Below are positions 1 through 8,914 of a stretch of DNA of 23,497 bases, in pieces. Numbering within the stretch: the first letter of the stretch is position 1; every line of letters begins with the position of its first letter. The stretch spans positions 1 through 23,497 of the forward strand of contig JAHZJY010000252.1 in the NCBI GenBank assembly GCA_022600695.1, in the 5' to 3' direction. This DNA comes from Actinomycetes bacterium (GTDB lineage: Bacteria; Actinomycetota; Actinomycetes; Mycobacteriales; Mycobacteriaceae). Below the pieces are notes generated by a model. The model was given only the letters and a program-made list of their open reading frames with translations. It searched no databases and was not told where the DNA came from. The position numbers and the translations under genes are program-made.

Positions 1-813
1 CCGGTTGACGTGTTCGAGTTGAATGCGGGTCTCGCCGTTAAGGACGCCGTTGATGGTGAACCGCACAGCGGCCACCCGGCCGGGTTCGATCATCCCCTTG
101 GCGGTCTGCCGGGCGGTCGGCGTCACCCACTTTTCCCAGGTAGTGGTGATCTCGTCGAGTTCGATCCCGGCGGCGTGCGCGATCATCGGCACGGTCGCAC
201 CCCAGGCGAACACCAGGATGTCCGGGTTCTGCAGCAGCGGAACGAATTCCGGCTCCCGGCCGATCCCCATCTCGAACTCGTAGTCGCCCTCGTAGTTGGT
301 GTAGTCCAGCAGTTCCGAGGCCCGGACAATGCGCACCTGCGCGCACAGGCCCATCAGGGTCATCGGGAACAGGTCGTTGGCGAATCCCGGGTCGATGCCG
401 GTGGTGAAACACGACGCGCCGCCCTCAGCGCAGGCCTCGGTGATCGGCTCGATCCAGTTCGGCGGGTTCAGTTTCATCGCCGGCCATACCCACGGTGTCA
501 TCGCCGTGGAGCAGACGTCGATCCCGGCGCGCAGGAACCGGCCGATCAGGTCGATATTGGCCTCGGCGTGCGCGGCGGTGGGGCCGTAGTGCACCAGGGC
601 GTCGGGTGCCAGCGCGATCAGTGCGTCGATATCGTCGGTGGCCGTCACGCCGACCGGGCCGGGCAGTCCGCAGATATCGCCGACGTCCAGGCCCACCTTG
701 TCCGGGTTGCTGACCCCCACCCCGACCAACTCGAACTCGGGGTGTGCGAGCACCTCGGGGATGACCATCCTGCCGACGAATCCGGTGCCGAACACCACGA
801 TGCGTTTCGACAC
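1..813 (-). CDS. Dihydrodipicolinate-reductase-like NAD(P)-dependent dehydrogenase (partial, C-terminus off window)
   Basis: This is an open minus-strand frame of 271 codons that continues past the left edge. It begins MSKRIVVFGTGFVGRMV, a Rossmann start with a GxGxxG-type motif (residues 9-14). This resembles the DapB N-terminal / amine-dehydrogenase-like proteins common in mycobacteria; a substrate cannot be read from sequence. The GTG start is one base after the stop of the Rieske gene (TGA-G-GTG), so it is very likely the next gene of the carotenoid operon and translationally coupled to it. Later segments such as CFTTGIDPGFANDLFP fit this dehydrogenase family. It could act on a carotenoid-derived carbonyl or alcohol, or be an unrelated passenger. 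The family call is fairly sure; the role is inference. Confidence 0.75.
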   Translation of the reverse strand, partial: MSKRIVVFGTGFVGRMVIPEVLAHPEFELVGVGVSNPDKVGLDVGDICGLPGPVGVTATDDIDALIALAPDALVHYGPTAAHAEANIDLIGRFLRAGIDVCSTAMTPWVWPAMKLNPPNWIEPITEACAEGGASCFTTGIDPGFANDLFPMTLMGLCAQVRIVRASELLDYTNYEGDYEFEMGIGREPEFVPLLQNPDILVFAWGATVPMIAHAAGIELDEITTTWEKWVTPTARQTAKGMIEPGRVAAVRFTINGVLNGETRIQLEHVNR

Positions 814-814
814 C

Positions 815-1825
815 TCAGTGAATATCTCTGCTGCGCAGCGTATATCGACGTTCGGCGTAGGCGAGGTCGTCGCGCCACAGCCGGGTGGCCGCGATCCTCA
901 TCAGCGGCCTGAGCACCGGGGCGGCGCGCAGCGCGTACCGGAAGCCGCCCAGGTCGGAGGTGGCGATGACGGCCTCGATGACCGCCGTGCGGGGCCGGCC
1001 GTCCGGGGCGGGTCCGATCGGGGTGGCGTGGGTTTCCACGACACTTCCGGCGCCCTCGCCGTCGACGATGTGCATGATGACCGTGCGCGGGTCCGGGCAG
1101 CTGAACTCGGCGATCACCGGGGCGCCGAGCCGGCCCATCCGGAAGGTGACGGCGACCTGGAAGACGTCGTCGGCTTCGGTGGCGTCGACCGGCGGTGCGC
1201 TGAGCACCCCGAGCCGGGCGAACGAGTACGGATGAAACCAGGCACCGTGCCAGGGGTCGAGCCGGTTGGAGATCACATCCTGCGGTTCGCACACACCGTC
1301 CAGTCGGGTCACCGCGACCAGCCGGGGGCCGTCGGGCCGCACCGACAGCACCGGGGAGTCCAGCGGCTCCTCGCCGCCGACCTTGTCCAGACGCACCCAC
1401 ACCAGCACACCGTCATCGTGGGCCGGCAGCGGCTTCCAGCCGAACTCGCGGCCGCCGTCCAGTCGCAGGCCGTGCCACGGGCAGATCAGACCGCCGCAGT
1501 CGACCGTGCCGGTGGACAGGTCCGCCCCGAGATGCGGGCAGGACGCCGGACCGACGTGAAGTACGCCGTGCCGGCCACGCCAGGCCACAATCTCGGTGCC
1601 GCCAACCTCCACCCCGAACGGTCGGTCGGCGCGGATATCGGTACTGGCGGCGAAGACGAACCAGTTACCGCTGGGCCGGCGGTGGGCACGCTGCAGGGCG
1701 GCGTCGATGATGCCCGGCTGGGCATCCTGGAAAGTGGGTTTCTGGTGAGCCCAGTCGAGCTTCGGAAGCACCTCCAGCGGAATCTCTTTCGGCATCCGGT
1801 CCGCCAGCAGCGACCACATGTCCAT
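815..1825 (-). CDS. Rieske [2Fe-2S] non-heme iron oxygenase-like protein of the carotenoid operon
   Basis: The protein is 336 aa. Rieske cluster ligands are visible as CPH (C96, H98) and CPWH (C115, H118), separated by 16 residues. Downstream, residues 190-198 read DPWHGAWFH. This D-x2-H-x4-H pattern matches the mononuclear iron site of Rieske oxygenases and suggests a catalytic oxygenase rather than only an electron carrier. The C-terminal half (WRDDLAYAERRY near the end) also resembles the oxygenase domain; from memory, actinobacterial proteins of this build carry a DUF5914-type domain. The start ATG shares one base with the crtU stop (TGATG), with a purine-rich GAGAGGGGG just upstream inside crtU, so the two are coupled. 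Position after crtU suggests oxidation of a carotenoid end group or another isoprenoid; this is inference. No reductase partner is seen nearby. Confidence 0.82.
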   Translation of the reverse strand: MDMWSLLADRMPKEIPLEVLPKLDWAHQKPTFQDAQPGIIDAALQRAHRRPSGNWFVFAASTDIRADRPFGVEVGGTEIVAWRGRHGVLHVGPASCPHLGADLSTGTVDCGGLICPWHGLRLDGGREFGWKPLPAHDDGVLVWVRLDKVGGEEPLDSPVLSVRPDGPRLVAVTRLDGVCEPQDVISNRLDPWHGAWFHPYSFARLGVLSAPPVDATEADDVFQVAVTFRMGRLGAPVIAEFSCPDPRTVIMHIVDGEGAGSVVETHATPIGPAPDGRPRTAVIEAVIATSDLGGFRYALRAAPVLRPLMRIAATRLWRDDLAYAERRYTLRSRDIH

Positions 1826-3377: not shown

Positions 3378-3419
3378 CACTGGTGCCCTGTCACTGGGGC
3401 CCTGTCACTGGGGCCCTGT
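3378..3419. repeat. Three tandem 14-bp repeats at the crtT-crtU junction
   Basis: On the plus strand the unit is CACTGGGGCCCTGT, present twice perfectly (3392-3405, 3406-3419) and once with one mismatch (3378-3391). The array covers the stop codon of the methyltransferase gene and most of the gap before crtU. Each junction recreates a TGA on the minus strand, so unit gain or loss would change spacing but not the methyltransferase end. Confidence 0.9.
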
Positions 3420-4148
3420 CCCGGCCGGCGCGTCACCGAGGAAGGTGTGCACGATATCGCGCTGCCAGCCGGGCATGGTCTCGCTGTGTACCCCGGCGAA
3501 ACCCGCCGCGGTCAGCCGGCGCTGGAAGTCCGTCGCGCCGTCGAAGCTGTTCACACTGCGCCACAGGTGCCGGTAGAGGGTGCTGTCACCGGTCCTGAGC
3601 CGGCCCGCCGGAATGATGACGCCCCAGCAGACCGCGGTCCAGATAGCCCGGGCCGCGGTGGAATCGCGCACCGAGTACTCGTGGACGGCCAAGGCCGCTC
3701 CCGGTCGCAGCAGATCCCGGAACCGGCGCAGCTGGGCGTCCGGGTCGGCCAGGTTGCGCAGCAGGTAGGCGGCCAGGATGCCGTCGAACGGTCCGCTGAC
3801 GCCTGCCTGCTCCAATGCCTCGATGGGGGTGTGCACGAAACGGACCGTCTCCGGCCAGGACTTGGCGGCGGCCTGATCGAGCATGCCGGCCGAGGCGTCG
3901 ACGGCCACGATCTGCGCGTGCGGGGCGGCCTCCAGCAGGGCCGCGGTCGAGGCGCCCGTTCCGCAGCCCGCGTCGAGCAGGCGCAGGCCCCGGCCACCGT
4001 CCGGAAGCCGCATCCGCCGCGCCGAGATTCGCAGATGATCGTGGTACCCCGGGTTTGCCCCGACCAGCCGGTCGTAGGCGGCCGCACCGACATCGAAGGC
4101 TCCCGGCACCTCGGCTCGGCGCAGACCGGACCGCGACAGCCCGGTCAT
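3405..4148 (-). CDS. crtT: CrtT-like class I SAM-dependent methyltransferase
   Basis: From the chosen start the protein is 247 aa. SAM motif I reads LLDAGCGTGAST (residues 58-69). The preceding GAFDVGAAAYDRLVGANPGY matches the N-terminus typical of CrtT proteins next to crtU and crtY in Streptomyces carotenoid clusters. The ATG at 4148 overlaps the stop of a small upstream frame (ATGA). An in-frame extension to a GTG at 4334 is possible, but it adds 62 residues with no family-like sequence. CrtT function is not firmly established; an O- or C-methylation of the pigment is an inference from context. The gene ends inside a 14-bp tandem repeat. Confidence 0.78.
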   Translation of the reverse strand: MTGLSRSGLRRAEVPGAFDVGAAAYDRLVGANPGYHDHLRISARRMRLPDGGRGLRLLDAGCGTGASTAALLEAAPHAQIVAVDASAGMLDQAAAKSWPETVRFVHTPIEALEQAGVSGPFDGILAAYLLRNLADPDAQLRRFRDLLRPGAALAVHEYSVRDSTAARAIWTAVCWGVIIPAGRLRTGDSTLYRHLWRSVNSFDGATDFQRRLTAAGFAGVHSETMPGWQRDIVHTFLGDAPAGTGPQ

Positions 4149-4327
4149 CGCCGGCCGGTCGGGTCGGCGGGACAACGGGTCTGCCCCGGTGTGTGAAAAC
4201 CCAGCATGATCACCATCGATATCCAGTAGGCGGGCCACCGGAGCAGCCCGTTGTGTAGTACCGCCAATTCCAGCACACGCACTGCGACCACCGAAACGAC
4301 GGCGGACCAGGCACGGCCCCTCTTCGC
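4145..4327 (-). pseudogene. Short membrane reading frame, possibly a truncated lycopene cyclase subunit (CrtYd-like)
   Basis: The 205 bp between crtB and the methyltransferase start hold an open frame ending in the ATGA that starts the methyltransferase. It reads VVAVRVLELAVLHNGLL, then RWPAYWISMVIMLGFHT, then a short polar tail to the stop. The hydrophobic run is membrane-like, and YWISMVIMLGF resembles, from memory, a segment of CrtYd/CrtYf-type heterodimeric lycopene cyclase subunits that would normally continue for tens of residues. The only in-frame start is a GTG at 4291 (48 aa) with no clear ribosome site. It is either a decayed cyclase gene or a small membrane protein. The cyclase idea is weak; the frame and the coupling are seen directly. 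Confidence 0.4.
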
Positions 4328-4353: not shown

Positions 4354-5280
4354 TCAGGCGGCGGTGCGGCGGGCCCGCCGGGCGCGCACCAAACCGCCGG
4401 TGAACACCTGCAGCCGCCGGCCCATCCCCACCGAGGCCCGCTCGCTGAACACCCCGAAGTCGATGTCCTCGATCCGGTCGAGGATCTCGGCGTAGAGGGT
4501 GAAGGCGGTGGCCACGCAGGGCCTCGACTGCGGGGCCAGAAGCGCTATGCCCTTATGCGCCTCGCGGTAGATGGCCCGGGTGATCGCGTGCTGGGCGGCC
4601 AGCGCCTGCCGCACCCTCGGATCGGTGCGGGCGTTGCGCTGGCACCAGGTCAGCAATTCGCGGTCCACGCCGAAGGCGGCCAACTCGTCGGCGGGCAGAT
4701 ACACGCGGTTACGTTGCAGGTCCTCGTCGATATCGCGGAGGAAATTGGTCAGCTGGAAGGCCCGGCCGAGCGCCTCGGCGGTGGGCTTGGCGTCATCGAG
4801 CGGTCCGACGGTTCCCAGGATCGGCAGCATCTGCAGGCCGATCACCTCCGCGGAGCCACGCATGTACCCGTTGAGCGCAGCCCGGTCCGGGTAGTCGGTG
4901 ACGGTGAGATCCATCCGCATGGCGGCCAGGAACTCCTCGAACAGGGTCAGCGGGATGCGGTAGGTGCGCGCGGTGTGCAGCACGGCGGGCAGCACCGGTT
5001 CGCTGGCCTCGTCACCGTCGAAGAACTTCGAGGCCAGCCGCTCGAGCCGGGCCTCCCGGTCGGCGACACCGGCATCGGACTGCAGGTCGTCGAGGATGTC
5101 GTCGGCGTAGCGGGCGAAACCGTAGAGGGCGTGCACGGCCGGCCGCTGGGACGGGGCCAGCAGCCTGGTCGCCAGGAAGTAGGTGCGGCCGTGTTCGGCG
5201 TTGAGCCGCCGGCAGTAGCGGTAGGACTCCCGCAGCCGGTCCCCGGTGATCCCGGCGGCCTGGAGTTCGGTGTGGATCAT
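4354..5280 (-). CDS. crtB: Phytoene synthase
   Basis: The protein is 308 aa, normal for the family. It condenses two GGPP molecules to phytoene. Both aspartate-rich motifs are present: YADDILDDL at residues 58-66 and FLRDIDEDL at 181-189, followed by the typical NRVYLPADE. YFLATRLLA near residue 34 is also characteristic. The ATG overlaps the crtI stop by 4 bp (ATGA), so the two are translationally coupled. A 205-bp gap, unusually large for this operon, separates it from the next gene. Confidence 0.96.
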   Translation of the reverse strand: MIHTELQAAGITGDRLRESYRYCRRLNAEHGRTYFLATRLLAPSQRPAVHALYGFARYADDILDDLQSDAGVADREARLERLASKFFDGDEASEPVLPAVLHTARTYRIPLTLFEEFLAAMRMDLTVTDYPDRAALNGYMRGSAEVIGLQMLPILGTVGPLDDAKPTAEALGRAFQLTNFLRDIDEDLQRNRVYLPADELAAFGVDRELLTWCQRNARTDPRVRQALAAQHAITRAIYREAHKGIALLAPQSRPCVATAFTLYAEILDRIEDIDFGVFSERASVGMGRRLQVFTGGLVRARRARRTAA

Positions 5281-6806
5281 GCCCGTACCCGGGTGGCCGA
5301 ACCGGTGATCGTGCGGGTCTCGGGCCCACCCGCCGGCCCGGTGACGCGCTCAGCGGCCAGCCGCCCCGACAAAAGCGCGGTCGGAACGCCCACACCGGGC
5401 ACCGTCGACCCACCGGCCAGCACCGCATTGTCGATACCGCGCACGAGGTTGGCCGGGCGGAACGGTCCGGTCTGGGAGAAGGTGTGCGCCAGCGCGAACG
5501 GGGTGCCGGCGTACATTCCCTGCCGGGCCCAGTCGACCGGTGTCACGACGTCGAGGATGTCGACGTCCTCATCCATCCCGGGCAGCAACCGTTCGGCCGC
5601 CGTCGCCAGCACCTGGCGGGCGTAGGCGTCGCCTTCGGCGGCCCAGTTGACTTTGCCGACTTCGAGATTCGGGCACGGCGCCAAGACGAACAGCAGGTCG
5701 CGTCCCGGCGGCGCGAGCGTCGGGTCCCCCGCAGTGGGCATGGTGACCAGCAACGACGGGTCGCTCATCAGCACACCGTCATCGATGATCTCGTCGAAGG
5801 TCTTCGACCAGTTCTTCCCGAAGCTGATGTTGTGGTGCGCCAGCGCATTCCCGACCGCGGGTACCCCGGCGTGGATGACCACCGCCGACGGGGAGGGCCG
5901 GAAGGTGATGGAGCGACGCGGGGTCTTACCGAGCAGCTGGTAGGTCAGCGGCAATTCGGTGGTGAGTACCACCGCGTCACAGGCGATCCGGTCACCGGAG
6001 TCGGTGCATACCGCCGTCACCCGCGAGCCGGATCGCTCCAGGGCCGTGACGGTGGTCCCGTAGCGGAAGGTGACGCCGGCGTCGGACGCGGCGGCGGCCA
6101 GCGACTCGGGAACCGCCCGCATGCCGCCGCGCGGGAAGTACACCCCGGCGATGGTGTCCATGTAGGCGATCACCGCGTAGGCGGCCAGCGCCTTCTGTGG
6201 CGGTACCCCGGCGTAGAGCGCCTGGAAGGTGAAGATCCGCTGCAGGCGTTCGTCGGTGATGAATCTGCCCACCATCTTCTCCCAGCCGCGGAAGCCGCCG
6301 ATGGCGGCCAGCCGGGCCAGCTTCGGAGTCAGCAGCGACAGCGGGGAGGAGAAATTGGATCCGATGAACCCGTCGATCTCCAGGGTGTAGAGCTCGGTCA
6401 GCCAGTCCCGCAGCCGCAGGTAGCCGGCGGCCTGTTCGGGTCCGGCGAACTCTTCGATGGCGGCCGTCATCGCCGCGAGATCGGAATGCACGTCGAGCAC
6501 GCTGCCGTCGGCGAACGAGGCCCGGTAGGCCGGGTCGGACGGCATCAGCTCCAGGTAGTCCTTCATCGACTTTCCGACGGCGTCGAACGCCTCCTCGATG
6601 ATGTCGGGCATGGTGAGAACGGTGGCGCCGGTGTCGATGCGGTAGCCGCGGATATCGGCCTGGCCCACCCGGCCGCCGGGGAAGTCGTAGCGTTCGACGA
6701 CGGTGACCGACCGGCCCTGCCCGGCCAGGTGCATGGCGGCCGACAGTCCGGACAGTCCGGCGCCCACCACGACGACGTGGTCGGTGCTCCCTGGAACGGT
6801 TCGCAT
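5277..6806 (-). CDS. crtI: Phytoene desaturase (lycopene-forming)
   Basis: The protein is 509 aa and FAD-dependent. It has VVVVGAGLSGLSAAMHLAG at residues 11-29, FPGGRVGQ after it, and the C-terminal CrtI signature GGSTVPGVGVPTALLSGR. It introduces double bonds into phytoene to give lycopene. The ATG has a good ribosome site (AAGGGA, 6-nt spacing). It follows crtE after 39 bp and overlaps crtB by 4 bp. No irregularity is seen. Confidence 0.96.
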   Translation of the reverse strand: MRTVPGSTDHVVVVGAGLSGLSAAMHLAGQGRSVTVVERYDFPGGRVGQADIRGYRIDTGATVLTMPDIIEEAFDAVGKSMKDYLELMPSDPAYRASFADGSVLDVHSDLAAMTAAIEEFAGPEQAAGYLRLRDWLTELYTLEIDGFIGSNFSSPLSLLTPKLARLAAIGGFRGWEKMVGRFITDERLQRIFTFQALYAGVPPQKALAAYAVIAYMDTIAGVYFPRGGMRAVPESLAAAASDAGVTFRYGTTVTALERSGSRVTAVCTDSGDRIACDAVVLTTELPLTYQLLGKTPRRSITFRPSPSAVVIHAGVPAVGNALAHHNISFGKNWSKTFDEIIDDGVLMSDPSLLVTMPTAGDPTLAPPGRDLLFVLAPCPNLEVGKVNWAAEGDAYARQVLATAAERLLPGMDEDVDILDVVTPVDWARQGMYAGTPFALAHTFSQTGPFRPANLVRGIDNAVLAGGSTVPGVGVPTALLSGRLAAERVTGPAGGPETRTITGSATRVRA

Positions 6807-6845: not shown

Positions 6846-8021
6846 TCAGGTCAGCCGCTGGGTGCACGCGGCGGCCATATCGGCCAGTGCGGACTGCGCC
6901 CACTCGTCGATCCGGTTGTCGTGAACGAGTTCGGTGGCGGCCGCCACCCGCTCGGCGATGAGTTCCTCGATCCAGGCCGGCGCTCCGGTGGCCACGATCA
7001 GGTTGCGCCAGTGCACGATATCCGCCTCGCCGAGTTCCTCGGCGGTCATCAGCGCGGTGAACTGCCGACGGACCGCCGCATCGCCCATCCGCTGGGCGGC
7101 CACCACCACGCTGGTGGCCTTACGTTCGGCGAGGTCACCACCGGCCGGTTTACCGGTCACCGAGGGCGCCCCGAACACCCCGAGGATGTCGTCGCGCATC
7201 TGGAAGGCCTCGCCGACCGCGCTGCCATAGGCGCCGAGGACCTCGATCAGGTCCTCGCGGCCGGCCATCGCCGCGCCGATCTCCAGCGGCCGCCGCACGG
7301 TGTAGTTGCCGGACTTGCGCCGCGCCACGTCCAGGACGGCTTCCAGGGTGGGAAGGGCCCCGGCGTCGTTGGCGATATCGGCGATCTGACCGACGGCCAG
7401 TTCGATCCGCATGGCGTCGTAGTGCGGCCAGGCCCGGCTCAGCGCGTCCGCGGTCACCCCGCTCTCCCGCATCATCTGCTCGGCCCACACCAGGCACAGA
7501 TCGGAGAGCAGGACGGCCAGCGCTGCCCCGAACCGGTCCGACGATCCGGACAGTCCGTGGTCGCGATGCCAGCCGCCGAACCGCACGTGGGCCGCCGGCC
7601 GGCCCCGGCGCAGCGCCGAGTCGTCCATGACGTCGTCCTGCAGCAGCGCGAAAGCGTGCAGCATCTCCAAGCCGGCCGAGGCCCGCAGGGCGGCGGCATC
7701 GGCGACGGGGTCGCCGTCGGCCCCGCACAGCCAGCCCAGATACATGAAGGTCGAGCGCAGACATTTGCCGCCGTCGAGGAACTCACCGAGTACGTCGGGG
7801 GCGATGTCCACACCGGCCCGCTGCAGGTGGGGTGCGCACCGGGTTCGGACGAAATCAGCCACCTCGTCCAGCGCCCTGGTCCGCACACCGTTTCGCCAGA
7901 GCCCGAAGCCGGCCCCCGGCGATTCGATCGCCATACCGGTAGCGGTGCTGTGACCGCCGCCGGTCGACGTGGCGTCAGTCGCGCGCACAATTCTCCTGTT
8001 CTGCCCGGGCTCAGACTCCAC
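6846..8021 (-). CDS. crtE: Geranylgeranyl diphosphate synthase (polyprenyl synthetase)
   Basis: The protein is up to 391 aa. The first aspartate-rich motif is LLQDDVMDDS (DDVMD at 129-133), followed by RRGRPAAH; the second is RDDILGVFG (DDILG at 277-281), then TGKPAGGDLAERKAT. These are typical of actinobacterial GGPP synthases feeding carotenoid synthesis. The start is uncertain. GTG at 8021 has GAGGGG a few bases upstream. GTG at 7988 has AGGAG at 4-nt spacing and would remove 11 residues of low-complexity N-terminus; the conserved domain starts later in either case. It is the first gene of the crt operon and divergent from an SDR gene. Confidence 0.93.
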   Translation of the reverse strand: MESEPGQNRRIVRATDATSTGGGHSTATGMAIESPGAGFGLWRNGVRTRALDEVADFVRTRCAPHLQRAGVDIAPDVLGEFLDGGKCLRSTFMYLGWLCGADGDPVADAAALRASAGLEMLHAFALLQDDVMDDSALRRGRPAAHVRFGGWHRDHGLSGSSDRFGAALAVLLSDLCLVWAEQMMRESGVTADALSRAWPHYDAMRIELAVGQIADIANDAGALPTLEAVLDVARRKSGNYTVRRPLEIGAAMAGREDLIEVLGAYGSAVGEAFQMRDDILGVFGAPSVTGKPAGGDLAERKATSVVVAAQRMGDAAVRRQFTALMTAEELGEADIVHWRNLIVATGAPAWIEELIAERVAAATELVHDNRIDEWAQSALADMAAACTQRLT

Positions 8022-8173
8022 GGCCCCTCTTCTATTGAAGACGACCGGGCCGACAGGCGCCCGCCGAGGCCCCTATGGTCATCCACGCGTAATGATTCCA
8101 GAGCGGCAGCGGCAGTAATCTACGCTGGCGTTGACCTGCGGTTTCGGACATGAATACGTCGAGAGGGCCCCCC
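8022..8173. promoter_or_regulatory. Divergent intergenic region between crtE and an SDR gene
   Basis: These 152 bp must hold the promoter of the crt operon and that of the SDR. For the SDR, TTGACC at 8131-8136 lies about 15-17 bp before a weak -10-like GAATAC/ATACGT. For crtE, GGAATC on the minus strand (around 8095-8100) could be an ECF-type -35, but no clear matching -10 is seen. I see no clean operator palindrome. Confidence 0.35.
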
Positions 8174-8914
8174 ATGACACAGCTGAGCGACAAGGTCGCC
8201 CTGGTGACCGGGGCGTCCTCCGGACTGGGCGCGCAGGTCGCTCAACTGTTCGCCGAACGCGGCGCGACGGTGTTCGGTATCGCCCGCGACACGACCCGAC
8301 TGGCCGGTGTCTTCGAGGACGTCCCGGGCGGGGTGTGCGCCGCAGCCGATATCACCGACCCGATGGCCTGCCGAGACGCCGTGGCGCAGTGCGTGGCCCG
8401 CTTCGGCCGGCTTGACGTGCTGGTCAACGCGGCGGGTTTTCATCAGATGCGGCACACGACCGACGTCACCGACGACGACTGGGCCTACGACCTGGCCGCC
8501 AACCTGACGGGGCCGTTCAACCTGTGCCGGGCCGCGCTGCCGCATCTGCTGGAAACCGGCGGCAACATTGTCAACGTCGCCTCGGTGGCCGGGGTCGAGG
8601 GCGAGGTCTACTCCGCCGGGTACTGCGCCGCCAAGCACGGCCTGGTCGGGCTGACCCGCGCCCTGGCCGTCGAGTTCACCAAGGAACGCCTGCGCGTCAA
8701 CGTGGTCTGCCCGGGCGGCATGCTGACCCCGCAGGTCACCGACTTCACCGCCCCGGACAACGCCGACTACAAACTCATCATGCGGATCGCCGCCCCGCGG
8801 GGGCTGATGGAACCGCGCGACGTGGCCTCGGTGATCGCGTTCCTGGCCGGCGACGAAGCCGCCGCCGTGCACGGGGCGGTGTACGTGGTCGACCACGGCA
8901 AACTCGCCGGCTGA
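8174..8914 (+). CDS. Short-chain dehydrogenase/reductase (SDR)
   Basis: The protein is 246 aa. It has the classical SDR layout: cofactor motif TGASSGLG (residues 13-20), NAAG in the middle of the fold, and catalytic Ser (NVASVAG) with Tyr and Lys in YCAAKHG. The PGG segment after the active site is also typical. The ATG at 8174 follows GAGAGG at about 7-nt spacing. An upstream ATG at 8150 lacks a ribosome site. It is divergent from crtE. Substrate unknown; a role in pigment or retinoid-like alcohol oxidation would be speculation based on position only. Confidence 0.9.
   Translation: MTQLSDKVALVTGASSGLGAQVAQLFAERGATVFGIARDTTRLAGVFEDVPGGVCAAADITDPMACRDAVAQCVARFGRLDVLVNAAGFHQMRHTTDVTDDDWAYDLAANLTGPFNLCRAALPHLLETGGNIVNVASVAGVEGEVYSAGYCAAKHGLVGLTRALAVEFTKERLRVNVVCPGGMLTPQVTDFTAPDNADYKLIMRIAAPRGLMEPRDVASVIAFLAGDEAAAVHGAVYVVDHGKLAG

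Follow-up and report, generated by a model that had tools for sequence, protein, structure and literature searches.

The window analyzed here is a stretch of 23,497 nucleotides from a member of the Mycobacteriaceae (assembly GCA_022600695.1, contig JAHZJY010000252.1), and it carries, within an operon for carotenoid biosynthesis (crt), a gene for a Rieske non-haem iron oxygenase. This gene is a mycobacterial crtV, whose DUF5914 family was already known from such clusters. On the sequence evidence, we favor the explanation that CrtV is probably a hydroxylase of the carotenoid end ring, that the DapB-like dehydrogenase gene beside it is unrelated, and that the cyclase comes from elsewhere. The role as an end-ring hydroxylase has already been proposed in print (PMC5993118; this and the other papers are cited from excerpts). 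New here are the close co-distribution of CrtV with CrtU, an isorenieratene synthase-type desaturase, the cytochrome P450 at the place of CrtV in some clusters, and the finding that the dehydrogenase does not belong in the pathway. Should CrtV hydroxylate isorenieratene, a reaction that P450s are known to carry out would also be open to a Rieske enzyme.

CrtV and its co-distribution with CrtU

The open reading frame of crtV is intact on the minus strand (start ATG 1823-1825, stop 815-817). Its start shares one base with the crtU stop TGA at 1825-1827 (TGATG), and a single base, 814, separates its stop from the dehydrogenase start GTG at 811-813. Both junctions agree with the initial annotation of this DNA. 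Pfam assigned a Rieske domain (56.5 bits) followed by DUF5914 (PF19299; 291.2 bits against a cut-off of 27), which places the protein in that family, and the CxH...CxxH cluster ligands are those of a Rieske oxygenase alpha subunit. When 16 sequences, that of the window among them, were aligned, the motifs C96-P-H98, C115-P-W-H118, D190-x2-H193-x4-H198 and W-R-D319-D320 showed no variation. A predicted model and its fold matches gave a Rieske oxygenase fold. When solved structures were searched by sequence, the Rieske half alone was matched, and therefore the assignment of the C-terminal half rests on the fold comparison. KshA, dicamba monooxygenase and guaiacol O-demethylase, which act on different substrates, are about 16-19% identical to CrtV, with the sequence match in the Rieske half only. 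The third iron ligand is likely D319 or D320, judging from their position in the C-terminal helix. From the motifs and the predicted fold, the window protein looks catalytic, as had been supposed from its [2Fe-2S] ligands and D-x2-H-x4-H motif.

Loci were fetched by the Rieske gene, and the 80 named ones are the best 80 of at least 581 confirmed; this set is biased to mycobacteria, and some of the crt genes missing from it are due to contig edges. The fetched stretch contained crtU in 76, crtT in 74 and crtB in 72 of the 80. The arrangement of crtU with crtV is thus not chance, and the Rieske family is tied to aromatic-carotenoid clusters. Two of the four loci without crtU (L101 and L119) have it elsewhere in the genome. 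Among 296 genomes of the phylum, DUF5914 was found in 11, the window's own included, and all 11 encode CrtU with at least 54% identity; G214 has CrtU (51%) without DUF5914, and G204 only a 42% relative. Among 394 genomes of the class, which overlap in part with those of the phylum, DUF5914 was present in 72 and a CrtU-type match at 1e-60 in 77, and all of the 72 were within the 77. With CrtU counted at 50% identity or more, 71 genomes have both (G431 by a partial CrtU match), one has only DUF5914 (G516), three only CrtU and 319 neither (Fisher 1.7e-73, kinship ignored). DUF5914 was absent from all 14 control genomes. The link between CrtV and crtU is therefore strong, and the Rieske family is not one that is common without crtU.

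The three genomes with CrtU and without DUF5914 (G214, G421 and G652) all belong to one genus. Their gene order is crtT, crtU and then a P450 gene, directly downstream of crtU, which is the place of crtV in the window. The G214 protein is a cytochrome P450 by Pfam (42.9 bits), and its counterparts in G421 and G652 are 88% and 96% identical. No match to it (E up to 1e-3) was found in the other 90 of the 93 loci searched, 88 of them holding crtV. The isorenieratene hydroxylase of Brevibacterium is a cytochrome P450 (PMC12096840), a haem enzyme for the same reaction that is proposed for the Rieske protein CrtV. The P450s of the three genomes are likened to it by proposed reaction. A P450 at the place of CrtV in the three clusters found without CrtV fits and supports ring hydroxylation.

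Proposed role of CrtV and its alternatives

CrtV would receive its electrons from a reductase whose gene lies elsewhere, and would insert oxygen into the carotenoid end ring. The most likely site would be carbon 3 of the ring aromatised by CrtU, giving 3-hydroxy- and 3,3'-dihydroxy-isorenieratene, and CrtT may then O-methylate these products. A similar scheme exists in the literature, where the Streptomyces argillaceus CrtaV is described as a Rieske non-haem oxygenase (PMC5993118). For hydroxy- and methylated leprotenes in S. albus carrying the S. argillaceus cluster, CrtV and CrtT were proposed in 2018 as the hydroxylase and methyltransferase; leprotene is isorenieratene, and CrtV was suggested as its hydroxylase (PMC5993118). 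The initial annotation had likewise suggested a Rieske route to oxidised aromatic carotenoids. The crtU link and the P450 at the place of CrtV fit its hydroxylation step, and its dehydrogenase step did not hold.

That annotation also called the Rieske enzyme undescribed, a view contradicted by the excerpts, which name CrtV in S. coelicolor, S. argillaceus and M. smegmatis. SCO0188 of S. coelicolor and CrtaV are likened to the window CrtV by name and gene order. In M. smegmatis, the operon is crtIBYcYdUV within a SigF-dependent crt locus, of which MSMEG_2343 is the final gene (PMC4694148); from the gene order, MSMEG_2343 is probably crtV. Matched by name and position, this operon resembles that of the window in running in one direction with V after U, and differs in that YcYd is present, crtE is distant and, in the excerpt, no crtT is named. 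Matches to CrtV, 56-62% identical and mostly annotated as DUF5914, are also encoded in 14 plasmid records (Streptomyces 11, Streptantibioticus 2, Kitasatospora 1). The S. griseofuscus and S. anulatus plasmids carry genes for a polyprenyl synthetase, phytoene desaturase, phytoene synthase and DUF5914 protein in this order; the opposite strand encodes a lycopene cyclase and an FAD oxidoreductase, the latter being CrtU (53% and 54% identical). In such Streptomyces clusters V closes an E-I-B-V series, whereas in the window V comes after crtU in the same operon, and the cyclase has disappeared from the cluster. No paper on DUF5914 by that name was found in the open-licence PMC literature. CrtV is present in many actinobacterial isorenieratene clusters and, though its family is that of Rieske oxygenases, is still labelled in the papers as a putative methylesterase (S. 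coelicolor gene 188, PMC8539372), a methylesterase (MSMEG_2343) or, in 2025, a 2Fe-2S ferredoxin (crtaV of VITGV38, PMC11998277).

Several observations weigh against the explanation favored here. The crtV and crtT genes of S. griseus were reportedly dispensable for isorenieratene (cited in PMC5993118); this agrees with a late tailoring step, but reveals no function for them. In the work with the S. argillaceus cluster, the hydroxylase could have come from the host, and the pigment of M. smegmatis was reported as plain isorenieratene despite crtV in the operon (PMC4694148). A biochemical test of CrtV was not found in the open-licence PMC literature, as represented by excerpts. Three CrtV clusters in which both crtB and crtU were visible (L103, L106 and L108) gave no CrtT match. 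The P450 replacement counts as a single event and not three, since all its instances (G214, G421 and G652) come from the same genus. In addition, two lineages keep CrtV together with CrtT without clustered crtU (L083 and L085; L224/G516). L085 (M. lacusdiani) and L083, from a close metagenome-assembled genome (MAG), have the order B-T-V. The sole CrtU-like gene of G305 is 42% identical and lies elsewhere in the genome, and G304, the assembly of L083, has no CrtU-like gene at 1e-40. In G516, the order is B-Yc-Yd-T-V, and all that is left of the clustered crtU are scraps separating T from V; its CrtU-like gene, 43% identical, is 120 kb away. The ratios of nonsynonymous to synonymous substitution rates between L083 and L085 were 0.066 for V, 0.062 for T, 0.043 for I and 0.078 for B, from 4-7 nonsynonymous differences each; few amino-acid changes thus separate the CrtV proteins of the lineage that could be tested. 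Since the ratios are low, V and T are apparently still under selection there.

From these two lineages, an aromatic substrate may not be needed: without clustered crtU, either a paralogue acts as CrtU or CrtV needs no aromatic ring. On the latter explanation, CrtV would be a general end-ring hydroxylase whose substrate is the beta-ionone ring or another intermediate, and which acts ahead of CrtU or without regard to it. The retention of V and T and their low substitution ratios speak for this. Against it, G305 and G516, which are isolate or near-complete genomes, carry the 42-43% CrtU-like gene as a possible replacement for crtU; together with the near-constant presence of CrtU in DUF5914 genomes, this leaves the explanation unlikely. 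The same paralogue is present too in the crtU-keeping genomes G074, G600, G639 and G655. It is likewise doubtful, though conceivable, that CrtV represents a separate Rieske-type class of end-ring hydroxylase, matching the Brevibacterium-type P450 in function and with no need for an aromatised ring, and that in mycobacteria that lost crtU it still converts beta-carotene to hydroxylated or methoxylated products. An action on a non-carotenoid such as a quinone or lipid, or a role as an electron carrier supporting CrtU, would agree with the ferredoxin label (PMC11998277); no enzyme assay was found, and the substrate is not readable from the fold. However, CrtV has a mononuclear iron motif besides the Rieske cluster, and P450 substitutes stand beside crtU in the clusters found without V, so that we regard these roles as quite improbable.

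As a separate observation, a further CrtU-like gene is present in the stretches of L186, L187 and L225 (41-43% identical) and of L228 (50%). A CrtI-like gene of about 30% identity lies close to it, and these stretches gave no additional crt match.

The DapB-like gene and its conserved block

The adjacent dehydrogenase gave Pfam scores of 27.2 bits for DapB_N (cut-off 25.6) and 48.5 bits for DAP_DH_C, and 271 amino acids of it are present in the window, while called relatives have 354-425, mostly 356-362. The initial annotation had proposed that the Rieske enzyme and this dehydrogenase act in succession, from alcohol to carbonyl, as a two-gene tailoring module. The one-base gap in the window would suit such a module. 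Of the 80 loci, 13 have a dehydrogenase match of at least 80% no more than about 1.6 kb from V; all of these are among the nearest relatives of the window, and one organism is counted twice (L057 and L058). In L056-L059, the distance is about 1.5 kb, and two called genes intervene in L056. An orthologue of at least 77% was found in 11 of the 17 genomes searched, beside the crt cluster in four and outside the fetched V locus in seven. These seven orthologues, 77-84% identical and all in genomes that hold crtV, have no crt match in the stretches around them.

Instead, the seven stretches share members of a common block. The block contains genes for an alcohol dehydrogenase, metallo-hydrolase, carboxyl-type methyltransferase, Hsp70-like protein and the DapB-like protein, and further for a secreted protein (without a Pfam match), a peptide-binding protein, three ATP-binding cassette (ABC) proteins and a short-chain dehydrogenase (SDR). 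The Hsp70-like, peptide-binding and SDR names come from Pfam, and the others were judged from sequence. Where both sides were in view (the window, L046, L047, L050, L052, L054, L056, L057 and L059), the crt cluster is flanked by the DapB-like gene at one end and, at the other, by the SDR, secreted-protein or transporter side of the block. In L048 and L053, no DapB-like gene is present and the methyltransferase of the block comes after V. Four genomes with a V locus without the dehydrogenase (G301, G303, G308 and G318) have no 77% orthologue elsewhere. The DapB-like gene thus looks like a syntenic neighbor from an unrelated conserved block and not a member of the carotenoid pathway. The module was rejected on this synteny and is very improbable, and the dehydrogenase should stay out of models of the pathway.

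The crt operon and loss of the clustered cyclase

In the window, crtV belongs to a crtE-I-B-T-U operon with all genes on the minus strand (Table 1). The crt names come from Pfam families and cluster position. The window CrtU was above no curated cut-off among the 25 NCBIfam models shown. For crtT, the start ATG 4148 was favored over GTG 4334.

Table 1. Positions of genes and protein motifs in the window
Feature	Position	Strand	Basis
crtV, Rieske non-haem iron oxygenase, 336 aa, DUF5914 C-terminal domain	815..1825	-	Pfam, translation, alignment, model, fold matches
Rieske [2Fe-2S] ligand region C96-x-H98 ... C115-x2-H118	1472..1540	-	invariant, 16 aligned sequences
Mononuclear iron motif D190-x2-H193-x4-H198	1232..1258	-	invariant, 16 aligned sequences
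D319-D320 of invariant WRDD, C-terminal helix	866..871	-	alignment, predicted model
crtU, isorenieratene synthase-type desaturase, 513 aa	1825..3366	-	cluster position, homologues
crtT, UbiE-like methyltransferase	3405..4148	-	Pfam; conserved core in relatives
crtYd remnant (lycopene cyclase), 29 codons, 69% identical	4187..4273	-	homology, translation
crtB, phytoene synthase	4354..5280	-	Pfam
crtI, phytoene desaturase	5277..6806	-	Pfam, NCBIfam
crtE, polyprenyl (probably geranylgeranyl diphosphate) synthase	6846..8021	-	Pfam
DapB_N/DAP_DH_C dehydrogenase, cut by contig end	1..813	-	Pfam, synteny
SDR, 72-76% match to block SDR	8150..8914	+	Pfam, synteny

Most relatives have two small PF18916 genes (crtYcYd) between crtB and crtT, as confirmed by Pfam for L060. 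In the window, crtYd is reduced to a scrap and crtYc had no match. The pair is also gone at ten named loci (L043, L044, L049, L056, L083, L085, L097, L105, L107 and L110), counted only with the crtB-crtT stretch in view, and cyclase scraps remain in L049, L056 and L110. Mapped on a tree of 34 selected CrtV rows, the loss requires six changes, at least five by well-supported branches, while crtT and crtV stay; L051 and L055 (stretch not in view) and L118 (partly matched) were scored as not lost. An assembly artefact is unlikely, because L043, L044 and L049 are also without the pair, and L049 keeps a different scrap.

PF18916 was found in none of the eight whole genomes searched of the 11 with the loss, in contrast to all five genomes keeping the pair. 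It was not found in the window's assembly, which is itself incomplete (2.82 Mb in 401 contigs, 85.8% complete). A PF05834 cyclase of at least 170 bits was present in 10 of the 11 genomes with the loss, G304 being the exception. The window's genome encodes a PF05834 protein at C133:45-1022, cut by the contig end, whose family membership does not imply lycopene cyclase activity. With this protein present elsewhere in the genome, a pathway broken by the cyclase loss was rejected. Because the clustered crtYcYd is gone, a PF05834-family lycopene cyclase encoded elsewhere would presumably supply beta-carotene, the substrate of CrtU.

The named relatives of the window locus are for the most part Mycobacterium and Mycolicibacterium records. 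L044 and L045 are from MAG records titled Bifidobacterium breve, yet they carry a mycobacterial crt operon at 76-87% identity, and the titles are probably wrong.
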